Assembly (NCBI GenBank): GCA_014728215.1 | Contig: WJLZ01000059.1 | Coordinates: 1 to 42,451 of the forward strand | Length of the DNA: 42,451 nt | Direction of reading: 5' to 3' | From: Chitinivibrionales bacterium | Lineage (GTDB): Bacteria > Fibrobacterota > Chitinivibrionia > Chitinivibrionales > WJKA01 | In this document: piece after piece, positions 34,926-42,451 of the stretch | How positions within the stretch are numbered: the first letter of the stretch is position 1 | Layout: every line of letters begins with the position of its first letter | Notes under the pieces: generated by a model | The model's database searches: none | Seen by the model: the letters and a program-made list of their open reading frames with translations, nothing else | Told to the model about the DNA's origin: nothing | Position numbers and translations under genes: made by a program

Positions 34926-35246
34926 ATGTCCGAACTACTACCAATCAACAACGCTTTTGCCGCAGGCAAATATGAGTCGATACGGCGCAAGTCGAAGCCG
35001 GATCAGCAGGATAAGGCTAGCCGGGTAAACAACGACGCATCGAATAAAGAATCTGTTCACATCTCCGAGTCTTCACTCAACCTGCAGAAAATCTGGGATA
35101 AAATCAAAGTGCTTCCCGAAGTCAGGATCGAAAAGGTGGAAGAAATTAAAAAGGAGATTAGGAACAACAATTACCCTATCGAAAACCATCTCTACAAAGC
35201 CATGGAGAAAATGATCAAGGGGTATATTATCGATGTCGAAGAATAA
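34926..35246 (+). CDS. flgM: FlgM-like anti-sigma-28 factor
   Basis: 106 residues, disordered and basic at the start, then the FlgM core: SVHISESSLNLQKIWDKI, LPEVRIEKVEEIKKEI and NNYPIENHLYKAMEKMI. FlgM holds sigma-28 until the flagellar hook is finished. No flagellar gene lies in the window, so it is an isolated copy. It is followed by a clear terminator and tRNA-Leu. No strong ribosome site is visible before the ATG. Confidence 0.8.
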   Translation: MSELLPINNAFAAGKYESIRRKSKPDQQDKASRVNNDASNKESVHISESSLNLQKIWDKIKVLPEVRIEKVEEIKKEIRNNNYPIENHLYKAMEKMIKGYIIDVEE

Positions 35247-35467: not shown

Positions 35468-35552
35468 GCTCGGGTGGTGGAATTGGTAGACACTAGGGAC
35501 TTAAAATCCCTCGCAGCATAGCTGTGTACGAGTTCAAGTCTCGTCCCGAGCA
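35468..35552 (+). tRNA. tRNA-Leu (anticodon TAA)
   Basis: Acceptor arms GCTCGGG/CCCGAGC pair. The anticodon stem GGGA/TCCC holds CTTAAAA, giving TAA. A long variable arm (GCAGCATAGCTGTGT) and an 85-base length fit a class II leucine tRNA. The 3' CCA is not encoded. Confidence 0.95.
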
Positions 35553-35562
35553 CTACAATACA

Positions 35563-35796: not shown

Positions 35797-35865
35797 GAAA
35801 TATCCCTTCCCGTAAAGTACCCACTTGTTAAGCAACATGGCGATCATACTTCTATTGAACCTTGA

Positions 35866-35958
35866 GACTTGCGCATTATCGAGCGGCTGGTTCTGCTGGT
35901 CCGTTACCGTGCCCGACAGGGTGATCTGGGAATACGCGGAAATAGTCGCCGATATAAC
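35866..35958 (-). pseudogene. Fragment of a secreted protein with carboxypeptidase-regulatory-like domain
   Basis: The minus strand encodes VISATISAYSQITLSG followed by TVTDQQNQPLDNAQV, which is the end of a signal peptide and the first strands of a CarboxypepD_reg-like domain (SGTVTD..NQPL..A.V). There is an in-frame stop just upstream, no start codon, and after the Val the reading becomes unrelated. This is a gene remnant broken at both ends. Confidence 0.55.
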
Positions 35959-35989
35959 TCAAAACCTGCTGTATAAAGGAGAACAAAAA

Positions 35990-36106
35990 ATGAACATCCC
36001 TGAAAAAGATATCGAAGTACAATATGCCTGGAAAATCTTTAAAGATACAAGACAATTACAACACATGCTCCTCTCGTTCGGGAGTCTTTCCTATAGTAAA
36101 AGATAA
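35990..36106 (+). CDS. Possible 38-residue ORF
   Basis: AAAGGAGAAC lies well placed before the ATG; the product starts MNIPEKDIEVQYAWKIFK. No family recognised. It stands among gene fragments and may itself be the stub of a longer gene. Confidence 0.35.
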   Translation: MNIPEKDIEVQYAWKIFKDTRQLQHMLLSFGSLSYSKR

Positions 36107-36119
36107 TCCTTATGCAATT

Positions 36120-36391
36120 CGGATTTATTACGAAAATATCTTTCGTGTTTTGGGTGAGAGTCTACAATCCGAAAAAACCGCAAAAAATGCGAGTTATCGC
36201 AAAAAGACCTGGCGTTGGAGACCGGGCTGGACCGGACATATGTCGGCGGAATCAAGCGGGGAGAGCGGAATGTAGCAGTGTTAAATCTATACAAAATAGC
36301 TAATGTGCTCAATGTTTCAGCATCAAAGCTTCTCCAGGGGGTTAGATCAACAAATAGCTCACTTCAAAAAGCTCAGACTGTATCCTATCAG
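36120..36391 (+). pseudogene. XRE-family helix-turn-helix gene, frameshifted and truncated
   Basis: Two frames together give an XRE repressor start. The first reads IYYENIFRVLGESLQ. The second, shifted by -1 near 36167, reads IRKNRKKCELSQKDLALE, TGLDRTYVGGIKRGERN and VAVLNLYKIANVLNVS. The pattern IRxxRxxxxLSQ plus TYVGGIKRGERN is diagnostic for the HTH_3 fold. A net loss of one base (or four) between LQ and IR explains the break. The 3' part runs into DNA that is antisense to an HU gene, so the C-terminus is lost as well. Confidence 0.7.
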
Positions 36392-36571
36392 AAATCTGCC
36401 GAATCCTCGAATTTCAATATTATTGCCGCTCCGGAGCGATTTGCCGACAGCATCAAAAAATGCTTCAACAATGATTGCCGTGTCGACTTGAGTGAGGCCG
36501 GTTTTATCGGAGATCAGTGCAACCAGATCGCGGTTTGTAACGTTAGACATTTTTTTGATAGTGCGGGACAT
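36359..36571 (-). pseudogene. HU/IHF-family DNA-binding protein, truncated
   Basis: AGGAGG before the ATG at 36571 and the residues NVTNRDLVALISDKTG, LTQVDTAIIVEAFFDAVG and NNIEIRGFGRF identify an HU-family protein. Family members continue for about 30 residues with the DNA-grasping beta arm and its Pro; here the frame switches after GFGRF to ten unrelated residues and stops (70 residues in total). The foreign tail is antisense to the XRE remnant, so the break is a rearrangement junction. The product could still dimerise but should not bind DNA normally. Confidence 0.7.
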
Positions 36572-36742
36572 GGAAACCTCCTGTAATGATGTGGATATAG
36601 ATATGGAATTCTGATTAATCTTCAGCACATGCTGTTAATTTCGGTATCAGCTTGAGCCACAGCAGCATGCAGAGTGAGTTCTGAGCATTATAGCGGCTGC
36701 AATATCTTCAAAGCAAACCGGAATAATATGGAATCGATATAG

Positions 36743-36782
36743 ATGCGTCATTATTTGTCGCATGCTTTTCATATATTAAATT
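36743..36782 (+). promoter_or_regulatory. Shared palindromic operator and promoter, copy 1
   Basis: Arms ATGCGTCAT (36743-36751) and TTGTCGCAT (36755-36763) flank TAT. The second arm contains TTGTCG (36755-36760) as a -35-like element, 16 bases before TAAATT (36777-36782). Same size and geometry as the site at 41890-41910, and 38 bases before the ATG at 36802. Confidence 0.7.
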
Positions 36783-36801
36783 GAATATTGAAGGATAATT
36801 T

Positions 36802-38037
36802 ATGGTGGAAAAAGCGAAAACCAGGAAAAGTACCGGTAATCAAGCCCGGGCATTGCTTCCGGAGGCATCTCTCTACGCAGATCAATGCACTGATTTGTAC
36901 GGGCGTATCAATGCACTTATATTTATTTCAAATATCTGCCAGGAGACGGGGCAAACAAAGGAGGCCAAAAGGCTCTTATGGAAATGCTACCATCAAATTC
37001 CATTGCTGAAAGATATACCTTCCCGTAAATACAAAAGCATGGAAATAGCCTCACGATTCATGGACCTTGATATCTGCAGACCATCACTTACCCTTATTAA
37101 AAAGTTAAGCAGAAGCCAAATCACCTCATATCAGCTCTTTGAACTAATTGAAAAACTCCGAAAAGCGGGCAAAGCTGCGGTTGCCGATGATTGTATTTGC
37201 CGGATTGAGAAGAATTCGAAAGCATTTTTTCTGGAATCAGATAAATCGTTTATCTACTGCAGAATAGCAGAATATTATATAAATGCCGGAAATACATCAA
37301 AAGGGCTGAAATATCTTGCCCGAGCCGAGTCGTGGGCCGGCAGAGGTAAGTATGCCCACATTCGGTGTTATGCATATTCGGATGTCGCTGATTCTTATAG
37401 AAAAGCCGGAAAAACAGAAAAATGCAGGGTGAATCTCGGGAAAAGCCTTGCATGTGCGCGGAAAAGAAGAAACCTGCGTTCAATGCAGGATATCCTGCTT
37501 GTGATCCGGAAATACCATGCAAGCGGTGAAAGCAGGCGATCAAGAGAATTGTTGTCCAGGCAGATCAGGAAAGTATTCATTTCGAAATCAGACAATCTTT
37601 CCTGTGACTATATGCTTGAACTTTCTGATAGCTGCTGCATGATCGGAATGAGAGCAAAAGCGCTTGAATTGCTTGAGCTTTTATTGAGACAGGCAAGAAA
37701 AAAGAGATACTATTCTGAATTGATCCGAATCTGCCGGGGTTTTATGGATGCCGGGGATTTAGCCGGAGCAGAGCGGATTGTCAACAGCCCATCATTTAAA
37801 AAGGCCGATCCTTTTTTTGCATTCTTTCAAATCGGGTCGCTTGCAAAAAGATTTCTCATGGAAGGCGATTCCCACAAAGCAGAGAAATATCTAAGGCAAT
37901 CGCTGGACGGTGCATATTCGATCGGGCAGTATGACATGAAAGCACTGTTGATAGCAACGATTGCAGGATGGTTCAATGATTCCAATATTTTTGACAATAC
38001 GCTTGTGGAAGAATGCAAGGCGCAAACGAATAAATGA
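36802..38037 (+). CDS. Helical-repeat (TPR-like) protein of unknown function
   Basis: 411 residues, very basic, built of TPR-like helix pairs: ALIFISNICQETGQTKEAKRL, YCRIAEYYINAGNTSKGLKYL, YSDVADSYRKAGKTEKCRVNL, LELSDSCCMIGMRAKALELL and IGSLAKRFLMEGDSHKAEKYL. No catalytic motif, signal peptide or membrane helix; unusually many Cys for such a scaffold. AAGGA lies before the ATG. The palindromic operator upstream is shared with the ATPase gene at 41853, so the protein probably works with the AAA+ ATPase, the PcfJ-like protein and the WYL-type regulator. I do not recognise a named family. Confidence 0.82.
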   Translation: MVEKAKTRKSTGNQARALLPEASLYADQCTDLYGRINALIFISNICQETGQTKEAKRLLWKCYHQIPLLKDIPSRKYKSMEIASRFMDLDICRPSLTLIKKLSRSQITSYQLFELIEKLRKAGKAAVADDCICRIEKNSKAFFLESDKSFIYCRIAEYYINAGNTSKGLKYLARAESWAGRGKYAHIRCYAYSDVADSYRKAGKTEKCRVNLGKSLACARKRRNLRSMQDILLVIRKYHASGESRRSRELLSRQIRKVFISKSDNLSCDYMLELSDSCCMIGMRAKALELLELLLRQARKKRYYSELIRICRGFMDAGDLAGAERIVNSPSFKKADPFFAFFQIGSLAKRFLMEGDSHKAEKYLRQSLDGAYSIGQYDMKALLIATIAGWFNDSNIFDNTLVEECKAQTNK

Positions 38038-38278
38038 CCGCCACCATAATAATTCCCAAAACAGCCGGGAGAATCAACAGAAAAACTATTGAGCAATCCT
38101 GTATTGTCATTGAATTATTTCTCACTGCATTATTTTTGAAACCGAAATCTATTCACCTTGCTGTTTTATCAGATAAATTGATCTATAAAGCGGAAATAAT
38201 TTGACGATTTGCATGATTAATGAAATCTATATAATAAACTGCCTGGTAAGGGCATCAAATTCGACATCCCTCAAAAAA

Positions 38279-39559
38279 TCATTTTTCCGTTCCTGCAATC
38301 CATTCTTGAACACTCTTCCAGGTCTCTTCATCAGCTTCCCCATTAGCTACAGTCCGTAATTCCAATGGAACAATTTTATTTCCCTCATAAGCTACTGCCA
38401 GCGTAGCCCGTTGCGGCTCGAGTACTCGATAGATATAACAGGACCGTTCCATAATCATGCGGGAGCATGCATGCAGGCAGTTATGCATTGTAATGCTTTC
38501 ATCGATCAGCTCTTCAATAGTTTCTACCGGCATAATAGTTGAAGTGCCTGCCAGCGGAGGTGAGGGGAGCTTGTTGGTGCCATAGATCTTTTTCAGAGAC
38601 TTCGCACTTTGCTTTACAAATAATCTATCAAATTTTTCGCTATCGATCCATTTATTGTAGAGGGTCCTGAGTTCAGCCGCAGAATGGCAGGAAAACATTT
38701 TCTGTTCATAATTGCTAATTTCCAAATCCCGCGCGCAATCTCTCATATCCGACCATAATCTGGATAATGAAGCTCTCTTATCTCTATCAACAGTATGCCG
38801 GACCAATTTCCCTGATTCATCGACAGGCGAAAGCAACCAGTTAGTGAATTCGAAATTATGGATAAGGTTACAAATTTCATCGGCAGGGATTTCCTTTAAT
38901 TTTCTGATACTACTCATATGATCCAGCAACGATACCAGCTCCCTGATTTTATAGCAGAGATCCCGGTAGTATTGTCTGCATTTAATTCTCGCCAGTATCC
39001 TTACATACGATTCGGTGGCATTAATACCGATGAGCCGCAGTATCGCTCTTCTTTTACACAGCGCCCACCTTGCTCCTTCATCGACAGGTATTTTCTGCCC
39101 GGCGATTTCATCGGCAAGCAACCAGGCAAGAACCGGGTTCGATTCGAGCAGGTCCATTGTTTGCGGACATTGACGGATCATTTTCAAAAGCATTATCTGA
39201 CGCCAGGCGAAATGCTTGACATTTTCAACTACTCCCGGAGGAAATGTTTCAGCATATTCATCAAGCGCGGCTTTGAAATGCCTATTCGACGTATCGAACG
39301 GTAGCGTTATTCCCGGATCCCAATCATCACACTCCCATATCTCAAGCACAGGATGCCATTGTGATACCTGCAATCCCCGCTCCCAGGTACTGATTCGTAT
39401 GCAGGTTCTCTGTGATCTCCGGAAATCGATATACAGGAAGCCATGATAATCATCATACCAGACATTATCGTCGAGCCCTGCTGAATCGGGTCGCCATGAA
39501 TGCAAGCGCAACACGCCGGTGCATGAAGCTTTGTGGTCTTCTGTTTTGCATGCAGGCAT
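38279..39559 (-). CDS. PcfJ-like domain protein
   Basis: 426 residues, no signal peptide. The C-terminal third has the PcfJ-like pattern: LIDESITMHNCLHACSRMI, then SCYIYRVLEPQRATLAVAYEG and a closing VPLELRTVANGEA..; PcfJ-like proteins carry a similar M-x-x-C-V/L block before a short beta sheet. The N-terminal part (WDP.. and many Trp/Cys) is not recognised. PcfJ was named from a conjugative plasmid and its function is unknown. It starts five bases after the ATPase stop, so the two form an operon; the chromosomal setting here does not include transfer genes. Confidence 0.7.
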   Translation of the reverse strand: MPACKTEDHKASCTGVLRLHSWRPDSAGLDDNVWYDDYHGFLYIDFRRSQRTCIRISTWERGLQVSQWHPVLEIWECDDWDPGITLPFDTSNRHFKAALDEYAETFPPGVVENVKHFAWRQIMLLKMIRQCPQTMDLLESNPVLAWLLADEIAGQKIPVDEGARWALCKRRAILRLIGINATESYVRILARIKCRQYYRDLCYKIRELVSLLDHMSSIRKLKEIPADEICNLIHNFEFTNWLLSPVDESGKLVRHTVDRDKRASLSRLWSDMRDCARDLEISNYEQKMFSCHSAAELRTLYNKWIDSEKFDRLFVKQSAKSLKKIYGTNKLPSPPLAGTSTIMPVETIEELIDESITMHNCLHACSRMIMERSCYIYRVLEPQRATLAVAYEGNKIVPLELRTVANGEADEETWKSVQEWIAGTEK

Positions 39560-39564
39560 GGCAA

Positions 39565-41853
39565 TTACTCTTTTCTGAATCCGATCTTTTTGCCGACATT
39601 TCCGTTTTTTTCGGCGATTTCATTTCTCAATGAATCGATCAGCATATCATGTGAAATGCTGATGTTCTGCAGGAAAAAATATTTCTGATAGACCGCCTTG
39701 AAATCACCGGGTGTGGCATATTCAATGGAACGGATTTTCATTTGCTGAATTGCCGTGCATCGGGTTGTTACCATTTTTTTGAAGAACAGATCATAGAAGA
39801 CCAGATTGCCTTCGGAGCTGAGATAATCGAATCGCAGCTTAATGGGAAACCGTCGTATAGCCGCTGAATCCATGATTTTCTTGAAATTGGTTGCACAGAT
39901 GAGTATCCCCCTGAAATTCTCCATATTTGTCAGCCATTCATTCACAAAAGATATTTCCCACGAATGCTCAGCTCCTTCCCTGCCAGCCAGAAAACTATCT
40001 GCTTCATCAATAAACAGAATAGCCTTATCCCGCCGGGCTTCATTGAAAACCTCCCGGGTATTCTTTTCGCTCTCCCCTACCCAGCAGCTCATCAGGTCGC
40101 TCGCTCGTTTTATAATCAATCGCCTGTGGAGGAGACGCGCCGTGTATTTTGCAAATTCTGTTTTACCGCTTCCGGGAGGACCATAAAGGAGCATGTTCAT
40201 GTTATGTACAGATGATTCAGAATCCATACTGTTCCAGTATTTGTTGAATTGGCACAGGGCACTAAAACATCGATCCAAATCCTCATGAATATTCAATCCC
40301 TGTATGCTGTAATCGGGAGCATTGACTCTGGAATTTTTTTCAGCAGGTCCTTGCTGATCGATGATTTTCAAATGAGCATCGAGGATACCCTCGATAAGCG
40401 TAATAATCTCTTTCCGACTTTTCTGTTTTCTGAATATTCTTGCTGCATTTCGCAATGCGATATCGATTCCCCCCGCACTGATTTCATACTTTTCAGCAAG
40501 CGCGGTGATATCATGAACCGACAAGCATTTTGCCGGCATGTGTTTTTTAATGCTGTGCTCCCAGATTCTTTTCCGCTGCAGGAACGTCAGCTTGTCAAAC
40601 CGGATCGAATAATCAAACCGCCGTCTGGTGGATTCATCGATACCGTCAAAGCGGTTAGTGATCCATACTGTAAATGCAGTAGACTCATCGAGCAGTTTAT
40701 TGATCTGCCCCTTTTCCGCAAGCGGAGCCAGGGAGAAGAATGACGGGGATGAATTCAACACCGCATCGGCTTCATCAACAACGATGATCGCCTCATTGGA
40801 ATTGATCATCTTTCGGCAGGCCAGGAATGCCCGGTACCTGAACATTGCATGAGCGGTTTCATCTTTCTGTTTTTCATCATCGATATTCTTTATTTCATAA
40901 ACATTCAGGTTAATGCTTTTGCCGAGCGCACGGGCAAATTCGGTTTTACCGGTACCCGGCGCACCATACAGCAGGATATTCACTCCCTGGTCCGGGGTTT
41001 TATGCCGGCGAAGGGCTTTCACTATTTCTATCTGCTTTTTATGCACGGTATGATACTCGAGCGGGATCGAAGGACCGCTGTATTCGGTGAAATACTTTTT
41101 AGATATTGCCTGACTGGCGGTGCCGTCCAGAAAATCGATCACTTCAACTGCGGGATTGCGTTCCTCGTTTAGCAATGCCGAATTGAGCAGTGCCGACCTT
41201 CCCGATAACGCTCTGCTTATTTCATTGCCTGGAATGCCTGATAATGTACTGAGGATTTTATTATTGATCGAATCCCTGTGAGTACGCTTTACGTCAATTA
41301 ACGGACTCAAATCTTCGATCATCTTGTCCACCACCGAATCGGTAACCGACAAGTAAGCAATCAGAAGGACCTCTTTTTCGATTTCACCTAACCCAAAAAG
41401 CTTTGCAATTTCATTGAGTTTCTTTTGCAGGGAGCACGTACGTTTGCCGGCTTTTTCAGCACAAAAATCGTTCAGTGATTCATAAATATATCGAAAGATA
41501 TCCCTTTTCAGATATTCATTGCGGTGCATATCCTTAATCATTTCTTCGATATTATCTCTCCCTGCTTTATACCCGTCATCAAAGGTATCTTCAAGTTTAA
41601 TGCGTTTCGCTTTTGCCAGGCAGAAGGTGACGATCCGACGTTTATCGGGCTGCGTAAGATAGCGGAGCGCAATTTCGAGAATATCATCACTGATGATTCT
41701 TCCCGTATGCTCGAGTATGTTCAGCAAGTACCCGAGTTTCCGCCTGTCGGCAATACCGTTGATCCTTCTCAGTGATATGTTCCTGAACCGCTTGTTTCTC
41801 TGCAGCGAACGTTTGCGATTCAATTTCCGCAAAAATATCTCATCCATATTCAT
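39565..41853 (-). CDS. Tandem AAA+ ATPase
   Basis: 762 residues with two AAA+ modules. Module 1: Walker A GAPGTGKT (297-304), Walker B IIVVDEAD (356-363), sensor Asn400, Arg410-412. Module 2: Walker A GPPGSGKT (558-565), Walker B ILFIDEAD (612-619), sensor Asn656, Arg667-668. Both modules therefore look active. The N-terminal 260 residues are helical, very basic at the start (LNRKRSLQRNKRFRN) and of unknown fold; they could bind nucleic acid or a partner. This resembles SpoVK/CDC48-type remodelling ATPases but no close family name is certain. GGAG before the ATG at 41853 fixes the start; a frame extended to 41910 would have its ATG inside the operator. First gene of the leftward operon with the PcfJ-like gene, divergent from the WYL-type regulator. 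Confidence 0.88.
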   Translation of the reverse strand: MNMDEIFLRKLNRKRSLQRNKRFRNISLRRINGIADRRKLGYLLNILEHTGRIISDDILEIALRYLTQPDKRRIVTFCLAKAKRIKLEDTFDDGYKAGRDNIEEMIKDMHRNEYLKRDIFRYIYESLNDFCAEKAGKRTCSLQKKLNEIAKLFGLGEIEKEVLLIAYLSVTDSVVDKMIEDLSPLIDVKRTHRDSINNKILSTLSGIPGNEISRALSGRSALLNSALLNEERNPAVEVIDFLDGTASQAISKKYFTEYSGPSIPLEYHTVHKKQIEIVKALRRHKTPDQGVNILLYGAPGTGKTEFARALGKSINLNVYEIKNIDDEKQKDETAHAMFRYRAFLACRKMINSNEAIIVVDEADAVLNSSPSFFSLAPLAEKGQINKLLDESTAFTVWITNRFDGIDESTRRRFDYSIRFDKLTFLQRKRIWEHSIKKHMPAKCLSVHDITALAEKYEISAGGIDIALRNAARIFRKQKSRKEIITLIEGILDAHLKIIDQQGPAEKNSRVNAPDYSIQGLNIHEDLDRCFSALCQFNKYWNSMDSESSVHNMNMLLYGPPGSGKTEFAKYTARLLHRRLIIKRASDLMSCWVGESEKNTREVFNEARRDKAILFIDEADSFLAGREGAEHSWEISFVNEWLTNMENFRGILICATNFKKIMDSAAIRRFPIKLRFDYLSSEGNLVFYDLFFKKMVTTRCTAIQQMKIRSIEYATPGDFKAVYQKYFFLQNISISHDMLIDSLRNEIAEKNGNVGKKIGFRKE

Positions 41854-41870
41854 GGGCTCTCCTTTGTTTT

Positions 41871-41929
41871 TTAATAAAATATCAGCAGTATGCGACAAAT
41901 GTTGTCGCATTTGAATTATATTTTAAAAG
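41871..41929. promoter_or_regulatory. Shared palindromic operator with two divergent promoters, copy 2
   Basis: Perfect arms ATGCGACAA (41890-41898) and TTGTCGCAT (41902-41910) flank ATG. Leftward, TTGTCG (41898-41893) is 16 bases from TATTAA (41876-41871); rightward, TTGTCG (41902-41907) is 16 bases from TAAAAG (41924-41929). A single dimeric repressor here could block both the ATPase and the regulator genes. Confidence 0.72.
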
Positions 41930-41968
41930 GAATATTCTGCTGGAATAATCATCGAAAGGAATAGATTA

Positions 41969-42451
41969 ATGGTCCATACCACCGATGTCCGGAAAAGCGA
42001 ACGGATGATCAGGATTCTGGCTTTTCTAATACGCCGAAAACCCAGGAAATTTTCGATCAGTGACATTCACAATATGCTGTGTGAGTTTGACATGGTATCC
42101 CTCCGGAATGTCCAACGGGACCTTAAAGAACTTTCCGAGATATCAGAAAGTTGCGTCTGCTGCGAAATGGTACAGGGGAAACTTCACTATTTTATCGAGC
42201 CTGACATCAGAAATAAAATGACGCTTCCGATAAGGCATAACGGCCTTTTAGCACTGTTTTTACTCAAACGATTACAGCCTTTTTTTGCATCCAAAGCACA
42301 AAGCCTGGAGGAGGCCCGTGATGCGCTTAAAGAGTTGAGCTCAGATCAATACTATGACCTTTTCGAAGACCTCGATGAGCAGCTTGAAAAGAGCACGTTT
42401 ATCTTTGGAGAGCAGTCGGTGCTCAGCCTCGACAACAACCTTCTTGCCGAT
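41969..42451 (+). CDS. WYL-type (DeoR-like) transcriptional regulator, 3' end outside window
   Basis: 161 codons are visible and the frame is open to the window end. The N-terminus is a winged helix of the kind found in WYL proteins: SERMIRILAFLIRRKPRKFS, then SLRNVQRDLKELSEI as recognition helix, followed by a second helical region (LPIRHNGLLALFLLKRLQPF) that leads into the WYL domain in this family. The ligand-binding WYL part itself lies past the window. GAAAGGA precedes the ATG. Being divergent from the ATPase gene across the palindrome, it is the best candidate for the protein that binds it. Confidence 0.8.
   Translation, partial: MVHTTDVRKSERMIRILAFLIRRKPRKFSISDIHNMLCEFDMVSLRNVQRDLKELSEISESCVCCEMVQGKLHYFIEPDIRNKMTLPIRHNGLLALFLLKRLQPFFASKAQSLEEARDALKELSSDQYYDLFEDLDEQLEKSTFIFGEQSVLSLDNNLLAD

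Follow-up and report, generated by a model that had tools for sequence, protein, structure and literature searches.

DriD of Caulobacter crescentus is a transcriptional activator that responds to DNA damage independently of the SOS system (PMC12340889, PMC4211646; PDB 8tp8, 9pfq) and is activated by single-stranded DNA (ssDNA) in its WYL domain (PMC12340889). Its binding site, with the consensus ATACGAC-N7-GTCGTAT, overlaps the -35 element with a constant spacing to the -10 box (PMC12340889), and the targets reported for it are didA, bapE, recJ, dnaG and CCNA_03891/01149 (PMC12340889, PMC4211646). The inverted repeats bound by other WYL regulators, those of the BrxR type, have half-sites 5 bp apart (PMC9122601). 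Here, we describe a locus at the right end of contig C59 of a Chitinivibrionales bacterium (5.0-Mb genome in 229 contigs); this entire contig, 42,451 bp in length, is referred to below as the window. In order, the contig end carries genes for a TPR protein (plus strand), a PcfJ-like protein (minus), a tandem AAA+ ATPase (minus) and the start of a WYL regulator (plus), four open reading frames (ORFs) that lie where a first-pass annotation had put them. We consider it probable, at about 0.72, that these genes belong to an accessory island constituting a mobile, DriD-like, ssDNA- or DNA-damage-inducible regulon with a Cdc48-like ATPase at its center and partners that can be exchanged. The type of regulator and its site are already known; the open-access papers that we searched do not report their combination with mobile partner cassettes and a tandem AAA+ ATPase, and contain nothing naming a system of WYL with AAA ATPase, PcfJ, DUF2779 or phospholipase D.

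The regulator gene is cut by the contig end. Its N-terminal half (161 residues; 41969-42451, plus strand) contains the helix-turn-helix (HTH) part and gave no significant Pfam match on its own. The C-terminal half (179 residues; L063, 13992-14531, minus strand) is found at the end of contig C213, and matches WYL (9.6e-9) and WCX (2.5e-12) in Pfam. When compared with the intact regulator of genome G030, the window half matches residues 8-168 (52%) and the C213 half residues 171-350 (50%), and their own genome holds no other close WYL match. Because the halves are complementary and the two contig ends share promoters, we infer that the ends of C59 and C213 are neighbors; the locus would then continue to the right of 42451 into further genes that carry the same operator. 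The WYL assignment made at first pass is upheld by the C213 half, although only the HTH half lies within the window.

Joined in this way, the regulator has the winged HTH (wHTH)-WYL-WCX build of DriD. A profile of 20 family sequences matched DriD over its full length (3e-57), making it the closest solved relative, followed by PafBC (4e-25), CapW (1e-6) and 7qfz (5e-6), an unnamed WYL protein that we take to be BrxR. The first-pass annotation had implied a defense regulator of the BrxR/CapW type, whereas these values place the family far nearer to DriD. PafBC of mycobacteria is likewise a WYL-family activator responding to DNA damage, but it is a heterodimer, unlike the regulator described here, and its target motif and promoter mode differ from those at the locus. 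The CapW site also differs from the locus box.

The likeness to DriD extends to the binding site. The operator motif of the locus, RCGACA-N5-TGTCGY, has the same CGAC-N7-GTCG core as the DriD site, with a -10 box 10 nt further on; as with DriD, the box sits at -35 and keeps a constant spacing to the -10 element, an agreement that is clear mainly within the phylum, and several promoters are controlled in both cases. Operator 1 (TGCGTCATTATTTGTCGCA, 36744-36762) has one mismatch to the DriD-type box and belongs to the TPR promoter, with a -10 box TATATT at 36772-36777, 10 nt past the 17-nt core. Operator 2 (TGCGACAAATGTTGTCGCA, 41891-41909) is a perfect DriD-type palindrome common to the divergent ATPase and WYL promoters, whose -10 boxes, both TATTTT, are found 10 nt past the operator core at 41876-41881 (minus strand) and 41919-41924 (plus strand), respectively. 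The two operators, both near-palindromes, are identical at 16/19 positions in the better orientation. The divergent promoter and the near-identical operators described at first pass are thus real and represent a single motif, and the common layout of operator and -10 box at the locus promoters agrees with the shared control by a WYL switch that had been proposed.

We then used the composite pattern RCGACA-N5-TGTCGY-N10-TANNNT to search 61 genomes, with the reversed pattern as a control, and found 42 sites against 1. In the window's own 5.0-Mb genome, all six perfect matches (6/6, at four palindromes) are on the C59 and C213 ends, where they serve the ATPase, WYL, PcfJ-B, p243-p213, DUF2779 and p163 genes described below; the TPR promoter is a seventh of the same layout, with the one mismatch in its box. 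Among 66 operator-gene pairs, which include many close relatives and do not represent 66 independent events, TA...T is found exactly 10 nt past the core in 38, compared to 0-5 at other offsets, and this spacing is present at all promoters of the locus, that of the TPR gene included. Discrimination from the control requires the perfect or composite pattern: when one mismatch was allowed in single operators and no -10 box was demanded, counts were no higher than for the reversed control in most genomes. A perfect box is found upstream of the ATPase in 20 of 108 ATPase-homologue loci, compared with 14 of 949 other genes in those loci, and some of the boxed non-ATPase genes, such as those for a Fic protein and a metallophosphatase, are likely members of the regulon. 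Of the annotated plasmid loci, nine in total, five carry a box with no more than one mismatch a short way upstream of the ATPase. Three further palindromes, one each in L257 (G043:C409), L252 (G032:C105) and L254 (G014:C144), carry the composite promoter on both strands with no ATPase in the examined stretch, and may mark additional cassettes. In G040, which lacks the ATPase, there are 19 one-mismatch boxes compared to 5 in the control, none with a -10 box, perhaps reflecting another WYL regulon.

In one lineage only, recA hints independently at a DNA-damage regulon. In G043, the start codon of this gene (L255:1450-2511, on contig C4) has a perfect DriD-type box 62 nt ahead of it, with a -10 box at the usual distance. 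The recA gene of G041 has a two-mismatch site at 46 nt.

The ATPase ORF (39565-41910, minus strand) encodes 781 residues, comprising a helical N-domain followed by two AAA domains. Since operator 2 and the -10 box at 41876-41881 fall inside the ORF as opened at 41910, translation probably begins at Met20 (≈41853), which follows an AAGGAG sequence, giving a protein of ≈762 residues. Walker A, Walker B and arginine-finger motifs are present in both AAA domains and invariant in 16 homologues. The two intact sites noted at first pass are therefore borne out, and the two-domain organization of the Cdc48/p97 class is preserved in the sequence, with activity predicted from it. The best fold matches were Cdc48/p97, Rix7 and NVL (E = 3e-18), which similarly have two AAA modules with intact ATP sites, and a sequence profile put the protein in the same group. 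The protein differs from them in its low identity (~20%), in being bacterial and island-borne, and in its N-domain, which was modeled as all-helical, without the double-psi barrel and beta barrel of the p97 type. A remodeling or unfolding ring would be the natural reading of such a model. No PADLOC, NCBIfam or Pfam system covers this ATPase system, in keeping with the first-pass statement that no catalogued system matches, and in PADLOC 2.0.0 the ATPase and its partners gave only generic AAA matches and no full-length system component. PHROG 10401 ("ATPase"), from phage-derived sequences, is the same family (1.1e-68), with no function assigned to it. IetA of the IetAS system shares AAA domain similarity, but the ATPase scored 124 of the 510 bits of the NCBIfam cut-off, IetA has the length of a single-AAA protein (~370 residues), and no subtilase partner was seen near the ATPase. 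The same genome also contains a decayed second copy of the gene, a frameshifted and shortened 141-bp remnant with 84% DNA identity to the P-loop region (L026, G000:C160:4795-4935).

A query of the genome contigs with the single ATPase sequence gave no match, while an alignment query found homologues in Fibrobacter, Treponema, several deltaproteobacterial groups, Gamma-, Beta- and Alphaproteobacteria, Nitrospirae, Verrucomicrobia and others, as well as in virus-classified contigs and on plasmids. At about 52 of the 108 homologues, a WYL gene is found at most four genes away, whereas every other neighbor family occurs five times or fewer; the 17 control regions contain no WYL gene. In the annotated plasmid loci, WYL is present in 8/9 and adjacent in most, and on two plasmids, from Rhodoferax and Diaphorobacter, there is an ATPase-DUF2779-WYL operon. 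The other plasmid neighbors include PD-(D/E)XK nuclease and UvrD-helicase pairs, Y-family polymerases, RtcB, Sir2, ADP-ribosylglycohydrolase and BREX genes. In four genomes of one family (G042, G048, G051 and G057), an island with common flanking genes has differing contents; in one of them (L245, G048:C3:151000-167000), the WYL gene is kept and a 371-residue gene behind a box replaces the ATPase. The small protein p163 of C213 has a single homologue, which sits between WYL and the ATPase in G030. The neighbor counts, the plasmid loci, p163, the island comparisons and the separate occurrence of PcfJ-like and TPR homologues together identify the ATPase and the WYL regulator as the conserved unit: the pair is constant and its partners are exchangeable. 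In Fibrobacter-type islands, a small protein encoded downstream of the ATPase (L029, 6673-7083; L030, 6519-6929) looks by eye like a nucleotide-binding protein of the SLOG/DprA type.

Two of the partners are in the window. PcfJ-like protein A (426 residues; 38279-39559, minus strand) is in the same operon as the ATPase, whose stop (39565) is separated from the PcfJ-A start (39559) by the five-base gap noted previously. Its match to PcfJ (PF14284) falls short of the Pfam gathering threshold (15.2 vs. 25 bits), but its paralogue PcfJ-B on C213 (421 residues; L063, 12684-13949), with which it is homologous (6.6e-22), passes at 25.8 and a G028 homologue scores 38.4. The PcfJ-A model was of low confidence (pLDDT 60, pTM 0.32), and a fold search with it gave no PDB match below 1e-3; PcfJ-A was not found on plasmids. 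The gene described as a helical-repeat scaffold encodes a TPR-repeat protein (411 residues; 36802-38037, plus strand; TPR_12, 2.4e-7), an operator-linked, genome-specific accessory. In the orientation of the window, C213 adds PcfJ-B, p213, p243, a DUF2779 protein, p163 and p403. By eye, p243 has a PD-(D/E)XK-like EAKLSD motif, while the DUF2779 protein (Pfam, 2.7e-41), a RecB-like nuclease, has an EVK nuclease motif and an exonuclease-like DFET motif.

The operon gap and the shared operators could be taken to mean that the ATPase, the PcfJ-like protein, a TPR scaffold and a WYL switch form a dedicated four-protein machine, the module proposed at first pass. We regard this as very improbable: the PcfJ-like and TPR proteins have few and distant homologues, none of which lies at another ATPase locus or has a box. 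Co-occurrence, the refuting check named at first pass, has largely excluded such a module, with homologues of both partners found apart from the ATPase while the WYL gene stays linked to it. At this locus, moreover, at least nine genes are under the operator or in the operons that it heads.

The left edge of the island is probably marked by a tRNA-Leu (taa) gene (35468-35553, plus strand). The uvrB gene, a HEAT-repeat gene and the tRNA are kept together in G002 and G004, with no match beyond the tRNA. A FlgM-like anti-sigma-28 gene (34926-35246; Pfam, 7e-10) lies between the HEAT-repeat gene and the tRNA, in an order kept in G002. Between the tRNA and the island (35825-36628) there are HTH gene fragments in shifted frames and a truncated gene for an HU-like DNA-binding protein (36359-36628, minus strand; PF00216, 7.5e-11, profile positions 2-50 of 90 only), consistent with the gene debris described at first pass. 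A second copy of the tRNA-Leu 3'-end repeat, as a candidate att site, was not found in the stretches examined. The GC content at third codon positions is 0.31-0.39 for PcfJ-B, p213, p243 and p163, compared to 0.52 for the host, which suggests that the locus was acquired as a mosaic, part of it with foreign base composition. The mixed GC content, the debris and the break in synteny after the tRNA might also reflect unrelated cargo piled up by chance in a tRNA-adjacent hotspot. We give this idea scant credence, considering that a single promoter type is confined to the locus genome-wide and that the linkage between ATPase and WYL spans phyla. The window ends within the accessory island, whose six or seven promoters, that of the ATPase among them, seem to be activated together by a single switch of the DNA-damage type.

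On the regulon interpretation, the island would encode a DriD-like, probably ssDNA-activated WYL activator and the genes under its control. The box covers the -35 position, 10 nt before the -10 box, at every promoter of the locus. A build-up of ssDNA through DNA damage, stalled forks, or phage or plasmid DNA would cause the regulator to bind these boxes and switch on all units together: TPR; ATPase and PcfJ-A; WYL; and, on the far side of the contig gap, PcfJ-B, the PD-(D/E)XK-like p243-p213, DUF2779 and p163. The predicted output is a p97-like tandem AAA+ remodeling ring with two active ATP sites, acting with exchangeable, often nuclease partners. Activation by ssDNA is the best-supported inference, since both the box core and its geometry agree with DriD; that the regulator activates rather than represses, and what the ATPase acts upon, are likewise deduced.

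Several observations weigh against this interpretation, all of which is computational. Most of the evidence for the -10 geometry is from Fibrobacter-type genomes, and outside the phylum it is weak; no good box was found in the closest relative, G030. Among the genomes examined, a perfect box precedes recA in one only, so recA does not appear to be a general target. DriD does not activate its own gene, whereas the WYL gene here carries a box, and no ATPase is among the targets reported for DriD in Caulobacter (PMC12340889, PMC4211646); the targets here are instead the tandem AAA+ ATPase and nuclease-like and uncharacterized proteins in one mobile locus, for which ssDNA activation is argued by analogy. 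Of the two arginines in the ligand site (RxxR of DriD/SiwR; RLDR in DriD), one is a lysine in the window regulator (KLCR), while the G030 homologue keeps both (RLSR). Finally, the C59 and C213 ends have no overlap sequence, and their junction was deduced, not sequenced.

The first-pass annotation had also raised a role in defense or genome maintenance. Maintenance is plausible, while known defense models were not clearly enriched around the ATPase (82, compared to 60 in control regions, by a crude count). An anti-phage or anti-plasmid system repressed by a BrxR/CapW-type WYL protein, with the nuclease partners as effectors, would account for the recurrence of nuclease-like and defense-type partners (PLD, PDDEXK_4, GmrSD, DUF2779 and Fic), for the variation in island content among related genomes, and for the BREX-2 genes pglZ and brxD upstream of the ATPase-WYL pair on a Sphaerotilus plasmid. 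The operators also resemble the palindromic sites of BrxR, of which there are two per island, each with a 5-bp spacer (PMC9122601). However, BrxR and CapW are repressors to which the DriD-like regulator is only distantly related, the fixed distance from operator to -10 box suits an activator better, and PADLOC matched no system. In this repressor form, we consider defense quite unlikely.

Within the DriD-like regulon, repair or damage tolerance and immunity carry similar weight. It is possible, though tentative, that the island is an accessory repair or damage-tolerance module of plasmids and islands, in which ssDNA from DNA entry or stalled replication would induce the ATPase and RecB-family nucleases, with no immune role. 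Such a module would fit the DriD-type control, the recA gene behind the same promoter in G043, the DUF2779 genes in several ATPase loci, the Y-family polymerases that Desulfosarcina and Methylomonas plasmids encode near the pair, and the nuclease-helicase pairs adjoining it on those of Novosphingobium and Leisingera. On the other hand, the partners are varied for a single pathway (Sir2, Fic, ADP-ribosylglycohydrolase, SLOG-like), the low-GC exchange is typical of conflict systems, and no repair phenotype is known. Somewhat more doubtful is a widespread uncatalogued immune system, in which a DriD-like sensor of phage or plasmid ssDNA would fire a p97-like unfoldase and interchangeable nucleases.

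For an ATPase-regulator pair found in many phyla and on plasmids, the results define a switch, predict a signal (ssDNA) and supply a promoter rule; pattern searches with this rule can reveal further members. If the DriD-like regulon is real, control of the DriD type would not be confined to Caulobacter but would extend to mobile gene cassettes, and bacteria would have a link between SOS-independent damage sensing and a p97-like machine. Should the immune function prove true, placing other genes behind a standard promoter cassette could alter the defense repertoire.

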